From: Oricola thermophila
GTDB lineage: Bacteria; Pseudomonadota; Alphaproteobacteria; Rhizobiales; Rhizobiaceae
DNA length: 64,000 bases
NCBI RefSeq assembly: GCF_013358405.1
Contig: NZ_CP054836.1
Location: 3,934,540 to 3,998,539, forward strand
Direction of reading: 5' to 3'
Shown: in pieces, positions 3,875-20,839 of the stretch
Layout: each line of letters opens with the position of its first letter
Numbering within the stretch: the first letter of the stretch is position 1
Notes under the pieces: generated by a model
What the model saw: the letters and a program-made list of their open reading frames with translations, nothing else
Told to the model about the DNA's origin: nothing
Database searches by the model: none
Program-made: the position numbers and the translations under genes

Positions 3875-4363
3875 TCAGTCTTCGTCCGACGGCTGCTCGG
3901 CGACAGAGGCGGTGCGGGCCGCGCGCCAGGAGTCGAGGCGGGCGGCCAGCGCGTCGTCGGACAGCGCGAGGATGGCCGTCGCCATCAGCGCGGCATTGGC
4001 CGCGCCGGCCTCGCCGATGGCAAGCGTGCCGACGGGAATGCCGGCCGGCATCTGGACTATGGAGAGAAGCGAATCCTTGCCCGAAAGCGCCTTCGAGCGG
4101 ACGGGCACGCCGAGAACCGGAAGCGGCGTCAGCGCGGCGACCATGCCCGGCAGATGCGCCGCGCCGCCTGCGCCGGCGATGACGACCTTGTAGCCATCCG
4201 CTTTCGCCGACCTGGCGAATTCGTACATGCGATCGGGCGTGCGGTGCGCCGAGACGATCAGCGCCCTGTAGCCGACGTCCAGCTCGTCGAGGATATCGGC
4301 GGCGTGACGCATGGTCGGCCAGTCCGACTGGCTTCCCATGATGATGGCGACGTCTGCGGGCAT
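3875..4363 (-). CDS. purE: 5-(carboxyamino)imidazole ribonucleotide mutase
   Basis: PurE (162 aa) shifts the carboxyl group of N5-CAIR to give CAIR, using the product of PurK. The class I motifs are present: [12 protein letters not shown] at the N-terminus (phosphate binding), SAHRTPDRM with the catalytic His, and [11 protein letters not shown]. It lies 25 nt downstream of a DUF465 gene and 2 nt upstream of purK. The DUF465-purE-purK order is common in rhizobia. No PurE-only (class II) features are visible, which agrees with purK being adjacent. Confidence 0.96.
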
Positions 4364-4388
4364 TGGCTTGTTCCGGTTCCGGTGGCGT

Positions 4389-4592
4389 TCAGGCGATGAT
4401 GTCGGGGATGATCTGGTCTTCGATCTGCTGCAACCTGTCCTTGATGGCCAGCTTCTTCTTCTTCATGCGCTGTATCTGCATCATGTTGCAGCCAACCTGC
4501 GCCATGGCACGGATCGCGGCATCGTAATCCTCGTGCTCCTGCCTCAGGCGCGCGGCCGCCAAACGCAACTCCGCCTGATCCTGTTCAGACAT
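4389..4592 (-). CDS. YdcH/DUF465 family small protein
   Basis: A 67-residue, mostly helical protein with the DUF465 pattern ([15 protein letters not shown], then [16 protein letters not shown]). The family is widespread in alphaproteobacteria and has no established function; two antiparallel helices are expected. It heads the purEK transcript. It is one of two DUF465 copies that diverge from the same 177-bp intergenic region (the other starts at 4770), which suggests local duplication. The start ATG is preceded by AGAAGGACAGGGC, an acceptable ribosome-binding site. Confidence 0.85.
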
Positions 4593-4769
4593 GCCCTGTC
4601 CTTCTGGTTACCTGCTGGTCGGGGAGGCCATGCAAGGGTTTCGATTGCAGCCTTCTTTGCAACAAATCTTCACGCATTTCCACAGGGGCCCGTTCGACAC
4701 AAAGCGGTTTTCATGTCACGATTTCAAGTCCGGCACGATTGGCCGGCCAACATGCAAGGAGACATGCCC

Positions 4770-4946
4770 ATGTCGATCGAAGCTCACCTCGAGTCCCTCT
4801 TGCGCAAACACGGTGTCCTGGAATCGGAAATTTCCGATATCCTTTCCCGGCCCGCGCCCGATCAGGCGGAACTGACGCAATTGAAGCGGGAGAAACTGCG
4901 GGTGAAGGAAGAGATCGAACGCATAAAGGCCGAAACCCGGCACTAG
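4770..4946 (+). CDS. YdcH/DUF465 family small protein, second copy
   Basis: A 58-residue protein (MSIEAHLESLLRKHGVL...LTQLKREKLRVKEEIERI) with the DUF465 two-helix layout. It is more acidic and shorter than the divergent copy at 4389-4592. The start at 4770 was chosen because AAGGAGA lies 7 nt upstream; the ATGs at 4752 and 4764 are too far from or too close to that site. The gene is followed by the convergent arsR gene. Function is unknown for the family. Confidence 0.82.
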   Translation: MSIEAHLESLLRKHGVLESEISDILSRPAPDQAELTQLKREKLRVKEEIERIKAETRH

Positions 4947-16680: not shown

Positions 16681-17862
16681 TCACGGCGGCCCTTCCCGTT
16701 CCGCCCAGACCGCGACGCGGTGGCATTCCTTCAGAACCTCGTCGATGGCGTGGCGGTTCCGCTTCCGGTGCCCCGGCGGCGGGCCGGGGCGCATCGCCGT
16801 GTAGATAACCTTCCGGCTGTCCGGCGGGCGATGGCGGACGCGCGCCTCGTGACGGGCAAGGCGGCGCGCCTCGCGGTCGATGTTGTCCAGCGCCATGCGC
16901 GCCGAGACAAGGCGGCGCAGCAGGGTCGCGGCAGGAACGGCATCGCCCGGCAGGCGCAGGCCGGGTTCCGGCAATGGCGGGTGGCGCATGTAGACCGGAA
17001 ACGGGTTGTCGCCCAGCAGGCGGATGCGCGGGCGCGTGCGCGCGTAGCGGCGGCGCGGCCGGGTGAAATCGAAGCGCTTGCGCGGATCAATGAGCGGAAA
17101 GGCCGGGATGGGGCCGAGCGGCACCGGACCGTCGGGCTCTTCCTCTTGTTTCGGTTCCGGCTCGGGATCGGGAAGGTAGCGGATATTCGCCAGCCCCAGG
17201 TTCACCGGCACGCGGACGAGCTGCGGGGCGGACGCGGCTGGTTTTTCCGGCGGCGCGGGCGGCTCGGGGCGGATGGTGACGGTGACGGGGGCGGCGGCTC
17301 CCGCCCGTTCGGAACCTGCCGAATTGCCGGACCGCCGGCCTGCCGCTGACGCGGCGACCGGCTCCTCACCCCCCTCAAGGGGGGAGAGTGGCGTGCAAGT
17401 CTCCGGCTGCCGCGCAGGATGCGGACATCGCGAGCCCCCCTCTTGTGATTTCCAGGGACTTGCTTGCTTTGCCGCGCAAGCCCCGGAAATCACTTTCTCC
17501 CCCGCAGGGGGGGAGATAGGGCGCGCTTCTCCGGCATCGCGCCCCTTCTTCGGCTTCAATGCCGGGGCATGGCGGACCTGCACCTCGATGTTGCGCGCGG
17601 CAATGACGATCAGGCGACGCACGGCGGCCTCGGCGGAGCGCAGGATGCGGCGGACGTGGAGAACGGCGTAGCGCGGCAGGGTGGCCGGGAGGACCGACGG
17701 AAGGGCGAACGAGCCGGCGTCGGCCTCGGGGGTTGCAAGGGGACCGGACGCGGGTTCGGCAGCCGTCTCGAAATCCAGCCCGGCGAGCACGAACAACTCC
17801 CGCAATATGCGCAGCAGGTCCCTGCGGTTCCTCTCTATCGCCAGTGCCCAGTCGAACTGCAT
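16681..17862 (-). CDS. Conserved hypothetical protein interrupted in frame by a palindromic repeat
   Basis: A 393-residue protein of unknown function. The N-terminal 90 residues (MQFDWALAIERNRRDLLRILRELFVLAGLDFE, RYAVLHVRRILRSAEAAVRRLIVIAARNIEV) and the basic C-terminal 160 residues (RYARTRPRIRLLGDNPFPVYMRHPP...) look like real conserved protein. Between them, about residues 115-170, the reading frame runs through a 152-bp repeat with three stem-loops (17365-17516) and yields a low-complexity segment with PPAGEK and LSPLEGGEE. The chosen ATG at 17862 has GGGAG 7 nt upstream. The gene is probably expressed, because no stop arises across the repeat. Confidence 0.65.
   Translation of the reverse strand: MQFDWALAIERNRRDLLRILRELFVLAGLDFETAAEPASGPLATPEADAGSFALPSVLPATLPRYAVLHVRRILRSAEAAVRRLIVIAARNIEVQVRHAPALKPKKGRDAGEARPISPPAGEKVISGACAAKQASPWKSQEGGSRCPHPARQPETCTPLSPLEGGEEPVAASAAGRRSGNSAGSERAGAAAPVTVTIRPEPPAPPEKPAASAPQLVRVPVNLGLANIRYLPDPEPEPKQEEEPDGPVPLGPIPAFPLIDPRKRFDFTRPRRRYARTRPRIRLLGDNPFPVYMRHPPLPEPGLRLPGDAVPAATLLRRLVSARMALDNIDREARRLARHEARVRHRPPDSRKVIYTAMRPGPPPGHRKRNRHAIDEVLKECHRVAVWAEREGPP
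17365..17516. repeat. RIME-like palindromic repeat inside a coding sequence
   Basis: Three consecutive dyads mark the element: CTC-A-CCCCCCT/AGGGGGG-A-GAG (17365-17388), a long stem with outer arms TGATTTCC/GGAAATCA (17446-17492) and inner CTTGC/GCAAG, and TCTCCCCC/GGGGGAGA (17496-17516). The layout and the C/G-run palindromes resemble rhizobial intergenic mosaic elements. It lies wholly inside the hypothetical gene at 16681-17862. Confidence 0.7.
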
Positions 17863-18053
17863 CGTCCGTCTCCCAAGCCGCACCATGCGGCACCGGGAGA
17901 AGGATAAGGGAGGCGGGAGCGCGGTGGATAAATCTACCGCGCGTGCAGGACGAATATTCCCTGGGAAGCATCACTCGACCATAGAAACTTCTCCAATCTT
18001 TCCGACCGGTGAAAATCGGGTAAGCTTGCCTCGTCAAGAATCGGGGGAAGTCG

Positions 18054-19412
18054 ATGAGGCCGGAATACTTGAAGCAGGGCGAACCCGCCCGTCTTTTTCC
18101 AGTGTTATCTACCACGTCGAAAGAGGGGCGCACGACTTCGATATTGCTAGCCTGCATGGGCAGGATAGAAGAATTTCGAAGAGACCTGCTGGCGACTGTC
18201 GGTGTAAGGGTGGGCAAGCGCACCACCATAGAGTGCTACACGGAAGTCGTCTTCGCCGGTCAGGACCCGGACATGAAAGACCGGCCTGACGGACTCATTG
18301 TCCTGTCGACCGGCAGCAAGATCTGGCGCGCGCTCGTGGAAGCGAAAGTCGGGACATCACAACTGGATGCAGGCCAGATAGAGAAGTACAGGCAGATCGC
18401 GCGGGATCACAAGGTCGATTGCGTCATCACAATCTCGAACCAGTTCGCGACCCGCCCGGAACACCATCCGCTGGAAGAGGTCAGGAAAAGCAGATCAAGA
18501 ATTCCAGTGTTTCACTGGTCGTGGATGTCGATCCTGACCTTGGCCGATCTTCTAATCAACACGGATGGCGTCGCGGATGCGGATCAGGCACGCCTGCTTG
18601 AAGAATTGCGCCGGTTCCTGACTCACGAGAGCGCGGGCGTGAAAGGTTTCGACCGGATGCCGCCCGAATGGAGCGAGTTGAATAAGCTCGTTTCTGCCGG
18701 CGGACGAATCCCGGCAAAATCGGAAGATGCACTGGCGGTGCTTGGCGCATGGCATCAGGAAACGAAAGACTTGTCGCTTATCCTGAGTCGCCAGACCGAA
18801 ACGCCGGTGTCGGAACGGTTGCCCCGCAGACATCGCAGCGATCCGACCGCCAGAATAAAGGACGGTCTCACAGAATTGCGGGACCATCACCGGCTGACAA
18901 CAACCCTCGACATTCCGAACGCGGCGGCTCCGCTGGAAATCGTGGCAGACATAACGAGACGCACCATTGATGTCGGCATGACGCTGCGCGCTCCGGAAGA
19001 CCGCAAGTCCTCGAAAGCCCGCGTGAACTGGTTGCTGAGACAGATCAAGGGCACTCCCCCGGCGGATCTCCAAATCAGGCTCCATTGGCCCGGACGAAGC
19101 GAAGCGACGCAGTTTTCCTTTGAAGACCTCTCTGCTGACAACTCGATTGTCGAGAAAGGCAAGGAAACGCTCCAGGTAACGAGCTTTCACATTTTCATCG
19201 CCCGCAGGCTCGGCGCACGGTTCACTCAGCAGGTCAATTTCATCTCCGACCTGGAAGAGGTCGTACCGGAGTTCTATCGGGAAGTAGGGCAGAACCTCTC
19301 AGCGTGGCGCATGAGTGCACCCCGCATCAAGGAAGACCGGGAACAGGCGGAGGACGTAACCACCGAGGCGCTATATGACGAGAGCGAAGATGAGGCTCAG
19401 TCCAACGCATGA
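18054..19412 (+). CDS. Orphan protein with PD-(D/E)XK nuclease-like N-terminal domain
   Basis: A 452-residue protein not recognised as a named family. Residues 60-130 have the layout of a PD-(D/E)XK nuclease: Glu64 in YTEVVF, Asp79 in RPDGLIVL, then Glu96-Ala-Lys98 in ALVEAKVG, followed by QIEKYRQIARDHKVDCVITISN. The C-terminal half (about 270-420) has no recognised domain and ends in a very acidic tail. GGGGGAAG lies before the ATG. The gene stands alone, is visibly less GC-rich than its neighbours, and is flanked by repeat remnants, so horizontal acquisition is likely. Defence or restriction is a guess; no methylase or partner is adjacent. Confidence 0.7.
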   Translation: MRPEYLKQGEPARLFPVLSTTSKEGRTTSILLACMGRIEEFRRDLLATVGVRVGKRTTIECYTEVVFAGQDPDMKDRPDGLIVLSTGSKIWRALVEAKVGTSQLDAGQIEKYRQIARDHKVDCVITISNQFATRPEHHPLEEVRKSRSRIPVFHWSWMSILTLADLLINTDGVADADQARLLEELRRFLTHESAGVKGFDRMPPEWSELNKLVSAGGRIPAKSEDALAVLGAWHQETKDLSLILSRQTETPVSERLPRRHRSDPTARIKDGLTELRDHHRLTTTLDIPNAAAPLEIVADITRRTIDVGMTLRAPEDRKSSKARVNWLLRQIKGTPPADLQIRLHWPGRSEATQFSFEDLSADNSIVEKGKETLQVTSFHIFIARRLGARFTQQVNFISDLEEVVPEFYREVGQNLSAWRMSAPRIKEDREQAEDVTTEALYDESEDEAQSNA

Positions 19413-19499
19413 TTGACGAAGGCCGAATAATGCGACCTTCGTCCTAGGTGTGTGACCTTTGTTCTCTTTCCCTTGGCGGGAGAAGGAGGAACGTCGACG

Positions 19500-20063
19500 T
19501 CAGGCGGCCTTGTCGGCGGGGGACCAGGCGAATTTCTGCATGACCGCGTCGACCGGCGTGTTCGCCAGGTGGTTGGTGTAGTTCGACATGACCTTCTGGC
19601 TGTAGCCGAGGATCACCTCGAGGACCTGGCGCTTCGTATAGCCGGCGTCGAGAAAGGCCTGGACGTCGGCATCCGACAGGTTGCCGTGCTGGCGGATCAG
19701 CTTGAGCGTGAAGGTGCGCAGGGCCTCCAGGCGCGGGGTCGGCAGGGGCGTGCCGTTGCGCAGCGCCTCGGTGATCGCGTCGTCGACGCCCATCGCCTTG
19801 GCGATGCCGGTATGGGCGGGAACGCAGTAGTGGCACTCGTTCTCGACATTGACCGTCTGCCAGACGACGGTCTTCTCGTCATTGTCGAAGCTGGATTCCA
19901 GGAACAGTCGGTGCAACTGCTGGTAGCCTTCCAGCAGGCCGGGCGCCTCGGCCATGACGGCGTGCAGGCCCGGGACGCGGCCGAAGGCGGCCTTGGACTT
20001 CGCCAGAAGCGGCTTGCTTTCCTCGGGGGCGGTGTTCTCGTCGTGGATGGTGAATTCGGTCAT
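19500..20063 (-). CDS. Carboxymuconolactone decarboxylase/AhpD-family protein
   Basis: A 187-residue alkylhydroperoxidase-like helical protein. The redox motif is C77-H-Y-C80 with His84 (NECHYCVPAHT), as in AhpD-type peroxidases; residues 120-187 complete the helical bundle. The start at 20063 (MTEFTIHDEN) has AAGGAAA 8 nt upstream. It diverges from a tetR gene across a region with two palindromic operators, so it is the probable target of that repressor. A role in detoxifying peroxides or in a ring-cleavage reaction is inferred from the family. Confidence 0.87.
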   Translation of the reverse strand: MTEFTIHDENTAPEESKPLLAKSKAAFGRVPGLHAVMAEAPGLLEGYQQLHRLFLESSFDNDEKTVVWQTVNVENECHYCVPAHTGIAKAMGVDDAITEALRNGTPLPTPRLEALRTFTLKLIRQHGNLSDADVQAFLDAGYTKRQVLEVILGYSQKVMSNYTNHLANTPVDAVMQKFAWSPADKAA

Positions 20064-20116
20064 CTCGGTTTCCTTTCCTGCGGCCATCGGGCGGCCGGTG
20101 ACCGGAGACATAATCC

Positions 20117-20136
20117 GTTTGAGTGATCACTCAAAC
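20117..20136. promoter_or_regulatory. TetR operator 1, perfect 20-bp palindrome
   Basis: GTTTGAGTGATCACTCAAAC is identical to its own reverse complement. It lies 54-73 bp upstream of the AhpD-like gene and 86-105 bp upstream of the divergent tetR gene. Confidence 0.85.
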
Positions 20137-20143
20137 CATAAAC

Positions 20144-20159
20144 TTGAGCAATCACTCAA
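20144..20159. promoter_or_regulatory. TetR operator 2, degenerate copy
   Basis: TTGAGCAATCACTCAA repeats the core TTGAGTGATCACTCAA of operator 1 with changes only in the centre-left. The two centres are 25 bp apart, near two and a half helical turns. Confidence 0.7.
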
Positions 20160-20221
20160 ATGTGAACCGGATGTTCCGGCAAGGCGGGACAAGCGGGGCA
20201 AGAGCCATTATTGTGGCGCGC

Positions 20222-20839
20222 ATGAAACGGGCACGACCATATGACCGCGACCGGGCGCTGGAGGCGGCGCTCGACCTGTTCTGGCGCAAGGGCTACCACG
20301 CGACCTCGCTGAAGGACCTGGAGGCCGCGCTGGCGATGAAGCCGGGCAGCATCTATGCCGCCTTCAAGAGCAAGGAGGCGCTCTATCTCGCCGTGCTCGA
20401 CCGCTATTTCGAGCGCGGTCGCGGCGGGTTGCGCGAGCAACTGGCGCGGACGGATTCGCCGCTCGAGGCGCTGGCCGAGCACCTGCGCTCCTTCGCTCGG
20501 GTGAAGGAGGGCGGTACCGATGGACGGGCCTGCATGCTCGTCAAGACGCTTCTCGACATGCCGCCGGACGAGGCGGCGATCGCCGCACGGTCGCGGCGCT
20601 ACCTGGACGAGATGAAGGCGGAGATCGCAGCCGCTTTCGAGAAGGCGAAGGACAGGGGCGAATTGCCGCCGGAGGCCGATGCAGCACGGCTGGCGCGGCG
20701 CTTCCAGGCCTATCTCGCCGCGCTCAGGATCGAGGTGCATCGCGGCACCGCCCCCGACGAGCTGGCCGCGCTGGCCGAGGACATGGCGGCGGAAGTGGAG
20801 GGGCTTCGCGCCCGGCAGGCGAGCCCGTCCGGTGCCTGA
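20222..20839 (+). CDS. TetR/AcrR-family repressor
   Basis: A 205-residue regulator with a TetR helix-turn-helix at about residues 10-50 (ALDLFWRKGYHATSLKDLEAALAMKPGSIYAAFKSKEALY). The helical ligand domain includes ACMLVKTLLDMPPDEA. The start at 20222 (MKRARPYDRDRALE) fits TetR N-termini; the longer frame to 20123 would run through the operators and was rejected. It is divergent from the AhpD-like gene and probably represses both genes. The inducer is unknown; related members respond to electrophiles or oxidants. Confidence 0.9.
   Translation: MKRARPYDRDRALEAALDLFWRKGYHATSLKDLEAALAMKPGSIYAAFKSKEALYLAVLDRYFERGRGGLREQLARTDSPLEALAEHLRSFARVKEGGTDGRACMLVKTLLDMPPDEAAIAARSRRYLDEMKAEIAAAFEKAKDRGELPPEADAARLARRFQAYLAALRIEVHRGTAPDELAALAEDMAAEVEGLRARQASPSGA

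Follow-up and report, generated by a model that had tools for sequence, protein, structure and literature searches.

A PD-(D/E)XK nuclease domain joined to a predicted YbjN-like chaperone fold in Oricola thermophila: a candidate one-protein sensor-effector of phage defence

In a 64,000-nucleotide stretch of the Oricola thermophila genome (contig NZ_CP054836.1, positions 3,934,540 to 3,998,539; hereafter the window), one gene encodes a protein in two parts: in the predicted structure its N-terminal domain has a PD-(D/E)XK nuclease fold with an intact active site, and residues 231-424 appear, at moderate scores, to share the fold of YbjN and the type III secretion chaperones (TY-chaperones). Both folds are known singly. 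Their fusion on one chain is apparently undescribed: the open-licence literature yielded no description of it, or of the TerD-nuclease-chaperone chain found in actinobacterial relatives (Anantharaman 2012 on Ter could describe the TerD fusion). On balance, and with confidence somewhat above even, we read the gene as a horizontally spread one-protein sensor-effector in phage defence, in which the chaperone-like domain would sense and the nuclease would cut. Phage defence is the most likely role, and a role in DNA damage or stress is its main rival.

Two lines of evidence carry the nuclease assignment. First, the AlphaFold2 model has helices at residues 23-37/39-47 and 106-118 and strands at 58-67, 80-86, 89-97 and 123-128, and solved nucleases including MspJI, AspBHI, PaqCI and BamHI match the N-terminal domain. 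Second, the conserved PD...ExK active site is present, with P78, D79, E96 and K98 invariant (Table 1); conservation was counted in alignment A2 (116 rows) and in a 22-row alignment. An earlier reading made from the letters alone (the sequence-only reading) had pointed to Glu64, Asp79 in RPDG, Glu96-x-Lys98 and a following helix with Q and Y; these positions were right, all invariant in A2. Its nuclease-like domain was upheld by structure comparison, the kind of check it had named as able to refute it, here made with the whole model. The nearest solved folds in the superfamily are AF1548, Can2/Card1, PaqCI, MspJI and BamHI. The protein shares with the superfamily the core topology, the E-D-ExK residues and the QxxxY helix behind them (QxxxY is typical of RecB-type members), and differs from it in its C-terminal partner domain and in that, even at a cut-off of E 10, Pfam and NCBIfam models failed to match it. 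Judging from fold and residues, the N-terminal domain is probably an active metal-dependent DNA nuclease.

The sequence-only reading had found nothing recognisable in the C-terminal half, and here it has been superseded. Residues 200-424 folded alone gave a predicted local distance difference test (pLDDT) score of 94.9, and the VIA-align rows for this domain were YbjN, AmyR, Spa15, VecA and others, with moderate scores and near-complete coverage of those chains. All structure models of the protein are monomers. With the whole model as query, Foldseek found nothing at E <= 0.001; alpha-galactosidases headed the list in two rows, at probability 0.18. Sequence similarity to the Pfam families of the YbjN/type III secretion chaperone fold was absent up to E 10, so we call the domain YbjN-like by fold and do not class it as a member of the YbjN family. 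Whereas the solved YbjN proteins, type III secretion chaperones and TY-chaperones are small separate proteins (PMC9503650, PMC5398634, PMC3575483), the domain is here fused to a nuclease in one chain. The nuclease and chaperone-fold parts usually occur linked. When 398 genomes were searched for the chaperone-like domain on its own, with up to 8 candidates scored in each, 10 matches proved to be members of the family and two more were marginal (E 5.3e-5 and 8.0e-4). We treated these two as chance matches; the open reading frame (ORF) holding the second is presumably FtsH-like. In one genome (G329, contig 42, 26896-27627) a 378-residue ORF matches residues 9-254 only and continues with about 100 unmatched residues; here the nuclease may be followed by a different or truncated C-terminal part.

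The protein belongs to a large family. A search with it returned 1,722 homologs at E <= 0.001 with 8,000 candidates scored (120 were listed, at 63-99% identity), and a search from a 41%-identical relative returned 1,747, the nearest named matches being Marinobacter. The homologs span Proteobacteria, Actinobacteria and others. Many of the listed rows are unnamed; of the names given, most are 'hypothetical protein', some 'Stress response protein' and one 'PD-(D/E)XK nuclease superfamily protein'. The term 'orphan' used in the sequence-only reading holds for the operon and fails for the family. Of its overall interpretation the nuclease fold and horizontal acquisition are supported, and the orphan family and unrecognisable C-terminal half are not. 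PHROG gave no match to the protein, and single and profile sequence searches of the PDB gave 0. A match to PADLOC PDC-S05 covered residues 38-74 only (E 0.0048, 15 bits) and was set aside as too weak and short. The 99%-identical homolog P0001 may be the window's own protein and was not used as evidence. Homolog P0146 has a precomputed PF13020 label, which no other homolog has among the matches listed.

Relatives in Rhodococcus, Nocardia and Streptomyces carry TerD ahead of the same two-part region. Among 72,556 plasmid records, 11 held a relative, all from Rhodococcus or Streptomyces; 10 are annotated 'TerD family protein' and one record has no annotation. In the two that were tested (one from each genus) TerD occupies residues ~4-172 (6.3e-47 and 9.1e-48), and the region behind it in the plasmid fusions covers 88-94% of the window protein. 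Because TerD sits in front of the whole homologous region, it was ruled out as the identity of the C-terminal half. Among the homologs listed for the Rhodococcus form, 115 of 120 carry PF02342; the window protein lacks it, and none of the 240 homologs listed in the two family searches bears the label. Nor was a TerD gene found elsewhere in any of 20 genomes with the stand-alone form (the control matched in 2 of 14). The actinobacterial fusions resemble the TerD-family proteins of Ter systems in their TerD domain, unlike the stand-alone form. On one Rhodococcus plasmid (L006, outside the 48-locus set described below) a CBASS cyclase and an E1-E2 protein lie downstream of the fusion gene; near the fusion on a Streptomyces plasmid (L007) the annotation shows no CBASS-like or similar defence gene. 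A link between Ter domains and anti-phage action has already been proposed (PMC10250203, PMC3710099).

Composition, distribution and phylogeny all bear on how the gene came to be here. Its guanine-plus-cytosine (GC) content is 0.577, against a mean of 0.662 (standard deviation 0.025) in 50 other window ORFs, which were picked mechanically and include at least one that is probably spurious (19452-20126). This is the second lowest of 51 values, the lowest being 0.575 and the third 0.616. The codon adaptation index (CAI), 0.499, is the lowest of the 51 (others: mean 0.681, standard deviation 0.090); third-position GC, 0.684 versus 0.797 (standard deviation 0.087), is not extreme. The sequence-only reading had judged GC to be below that of the surrounding genes, citing 32 of 60 bases at 18061-18120, a count that was correct when repeated. 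Of 61 genomes, its own among them, 4 carry the gene, and it was found in none of the 36 other genomes of its family. The counts were 12 of 398 genomes for the phylum and 12 of 198 (about one per genus) for a second family; some of the copies are broken. In a 59-row tree (41 Rhodobacterales rows and 18 'other', the latter including unclassified alphaproteobacterial metagenome-assembled genomes that might be Rhodobacterales), well-supported branches require at least four label changes and the most economical count is 8; such changes may be gains or losses. A Ruegeria copy and a Roseibium copy form a sister pair (100/91), as do the window copy and an Oricola protein (99/97). The mixed-taxon tree together with the low GC supports horizontal spread, and acquisition, which the sequence-only reading had proposed, is probable: in the comparisons it had suggested, of relatives and of codon use, the gene is patchy with the lowest CAI, and nothing refuted it. 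Around the gene, a search for an insertion scar gave only short two-copy repeats. In 20 relatives nothing closely similar to the flanking genes was found (at best 39% for the right gene, and 39% over a short stretch for the MarR-type gene on the left side). The protein occurs in 0 of 50,697 phage records and on one IMG/VR contig.

A further explanation is that this is a hitchhiking or decaying gene without present function in its host. Some relatives are broken, with stops within the match in six genomes (G042, G515, G614, G570, G194 and G241), and a promoter scan gave no sigma-70-type match near the gene. The window copy, however, is intact and keeps every active-site residue, and we regard decay as very improbable. 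In G570 (contig 1, 3171779-3174353) the relative lies in two pieces ~1.2 kb apart with a stop inside each.

Across 53 loci from named genomes the gene had no constant operon partner. The family met most often beside it, which from its sequence we take to be RimO-like, adjoins 16 of the 53 (L010, L012 and L014 among them) in either orientation. Close neighbours, two called ORFs to either side of the gene, were scanned with PADLOC at 48 loci (37 of the 53, ten further genome stretches and one IMG/VR contig; the 16 RimO-side loci were left out), which covered 109 of 179 listed ORFs, the 179 including ORFs of three further loci. The scan matched 51 families, 25 of them listed; SspF, ZorA, ZorB, MTase_II, CARF6 and AriA were traced to loci, and DrmC, HNH and mad2 were not. 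The clearest case is L057 (7959-16351), where the relative directly precedes a complete Zorya type I set (ZorA 2.6e-144, ZorB 5.8e-97, ZorC 1.5e-91, ZorD 0) and its stop shares one base with zorA as called. ZorA and ZorB occurred in one neighbour each of the 109, both in L057, so despite this adjacency to ZorABCD there is no regular association with Zorya. Regulator-like and integrase-like ORFs, by reading of the ORFs, lie upstream of the L057 relative. L108 has an SspF neighbour (2.2e-149) with SspG (1e-140) farther along. At L023 (9381-12302) the relative is followed after 37 bp by a gene for a UvrD-type helicase that bears a topoisomerase zinc ribbon, and a CARF6 protein (3.6e-41) and an ORC-CDC6-like ATPase lie upstream. 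Two loci were chosen by eye: L060, with an REase-ARP neighbour (Pfam 3.7e-25), and L049 (9651-13232), where VWA, PP2C and kinase/Zn-ribbon genes follow the relative, a triad that we take to resemble the TerY-phosphorylation triad of Ter systems. An AriA neighbour (L117) was not counted because 60 ATPase-type models match alongside it. Restriction- or defence-type neighbours thus occur at 5 of 48 loci, or 6 of 48 counting the L049 triad. As a distal control, 87 of 90 ORFs of the same loci (the three dropped being the gene itself) gave 12 families against 51 for the near neighbours, including SspG (the L108 island again), MkoA, MkoC, RtcR types, and mad3 in three. In this descriptive comparison, enrichment of defence genes near relatives is modest and suggestive. 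A single-gene defence function is plausible, with a minority of relatives near Zorya, Ssp, restriction-modification (R-M), CARF or CBASS genes and a distal control that is weaker, not empty.

These loci also bear on whether the protein is a restriction endonuclease that lacks a dedicated methyltransferase, either an orphan type II enzyme or a modification-dependent one of type IV, its C-terminal half recognising DNA. The N-terminal likeness to MspJI, AspBHI, PaqCI and BamHI would suit such an enzyme, as would a solitary gene of low GC and the relative at L048, which adjoins a methyltransferase (1.5e-116) and an XcyI-type endonuclease (Pfam 9.2e-13). Yet the predicted C-terminal fold resembles protein-binding chaperones, none of the four window neighbours scanned is a methyltransferase, and the L048 gene is the one MTase_II among the 109 PADLOC-scanned neighbours; we consider this explanation improbable.

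How might a sensor-effector of phage defence work? The chaperone-like domain could capture a phage-made protein, or a host protein altered by infection (for example, a single-stranded DNA-binding or replication protein). Until the C-terminal half encounters its partner, the nuclease would stay inactive or without a target; binding would release or position it, and the PD-(D/E)XK domain would then cut invading or host DNA. In the actinobacterial form the N-terminal TerD could be a second input. That the C-terminal domain binds a segment of a partner protein is suggested by analogy with YbjN and type III secretion chaperones, which bind such segments. Section 3.8 of a comparative-genomics paper (PMC9503650) interprets domains of this fold as chaperones for peptides, in conflict systems where restriction-type nucleases are present too, and DR1245, of the same fold, interacts with the SSB-like (single-stranded DNA-binding-like) DdrB (PMC3575483). 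In the ARG-centric conflict systems of that section TY-chaperones and REases are separate genes; here they form one chain, and the window neighbours scanned comprise CMD-, TetR- and MarR-type genes and a fourth that matched nothing. More tentatively, we propose a new class of one-protein immune sensor-effector, in which a TY-chaperone-like domain would capture either a phage protein that is unfolded or free, or a host replication or SSB-like protein displaced during infection, and so license the fused nuclease, the TerD form linking Ter signalling to DNA cleavage.

Several observations fit a stress-response or DNA-repair nuclease, whose chaperone-like domain would hold a host protein and whose nuclease would act on damaged DNA. 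The VWA-PP2C-kinase genes and the TerD fusion would then mark a general stress pathway. TerD (GO: response to stress in records) is fused in the Rhodococcus and Streptomyces forms, the VWA-PP2C-kinase/Zn-ribbon triad stands downstream at one locus, and 16 of 53 loci adjoin the same RimO-like gene. There is also a precedent in the interaction of the YbjN-like DR1245 with DdrB (PMC3575483). The patchy distribution and taxon-mixing tree, however, are more what one expects of an accessory gene than of a core repair function, and Zorya, Ssp, R-M and CBASS neighbours occur at some loci. We rate this alternative as rather unlikely.

At its own locus the gene is an ORF of the extent given in the sequence-only reading (452 codons, ATG start) and, as that reading also had it, stands alone: the left neighbour (16681-17886, minus strand) is divergent, the right (19500-20111, minus strand; Pfam CMD match, 1.1e-05) convergent, and a TetR gene (20123-20839, plus strand) lies beyond. 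The ribosome-binding site that it had called good is present as the purine run GGGGGAAG and ends only 3 nt from the ATG, a spacing that is acceptable though close. The inverted repeat behind the stop is absent from the terminator-scan sites. Two side observations concern other genes of the window. ORF 4311-4946 (plus strand; GC 0.575, CAI 0.501) is as atypical as the gene studied. The left neighbour encodes 401 amino acids with no Pfam or NCBIfam match and belongs to a multi-copy family, with 46 matches in its own genome and ten other places at 67-90% identity; among 21 genomes, it was otherwise confined to members of the genus and a single additional genome.

Table 1. Features of the gene and its product in window coordinates.
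Feature	Position	Strand	Basis
Whole gene, nuclease/chaperone-fold protein, 452 amino acids	18054..19412	+	ORF with ATG start; >1700 homologs; AlphaFold2 mean pLDDT 92.6
Purine-rich Shine-Dalgarno-like run GGGGGAAG	18043..18050	+	read from sequence
PD-(D/E)XK nuclease domain (predicted), residues ~17-195	18102..18638	+	AlphaFold2 elements; solved PD-(D/E)XK structures match residues 17-191
Glu64 codon, putative active-site acid	18243..18245	+	E in 116/116 and 22/22 rows
Pro78-Asp79 codons, PD of motif, in RPDG	18285..18290	+	P, D in 116/116 and 22/22 rows
Glu96-Ala97-Lys98 codons, ExK of motif	18339..18347	+	E, K in 116/116 and 22/22 rows
Gln108-x3-Tyr112, QxxxY of next helix	18375..18389	+	Q, Y in 116/116 and 22/22 rows
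Connector, residues ~196-230, helix 204-214	18639..18743	+	AlphaFold2 secondary structure
C-terminal domain, YbjN / type III secretion chaperone (TY-chaperone)-like fold (predicted), residues ~231-424	18744..19325	+	predicted model, VIA-align rows
Acid-rich C-terminal tail, residues 425-452, mostly low confidence	19326..19409	+	block pLDDT 77 (421-430), then 51, 55, 49
Perfect 8-bp inverted repeat, 3' of stop, without T run	19415..19443 (arms 19415-19422, 19436-19443)		read from sequence

A family of more than 1,700 homologs, mostly called 'hypothetical' or 'stress response' where named at all, becomes directly testable now that both of its domains have a fold assignment and the active site is seen to be intact. 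Through the TerD fusion, the role of TerD domains in stress and defence can be approached as well. If the chaperone-like half does sense a partner protein, the family would represent a new bacterial coupling of protein recognition to DNA cutting.
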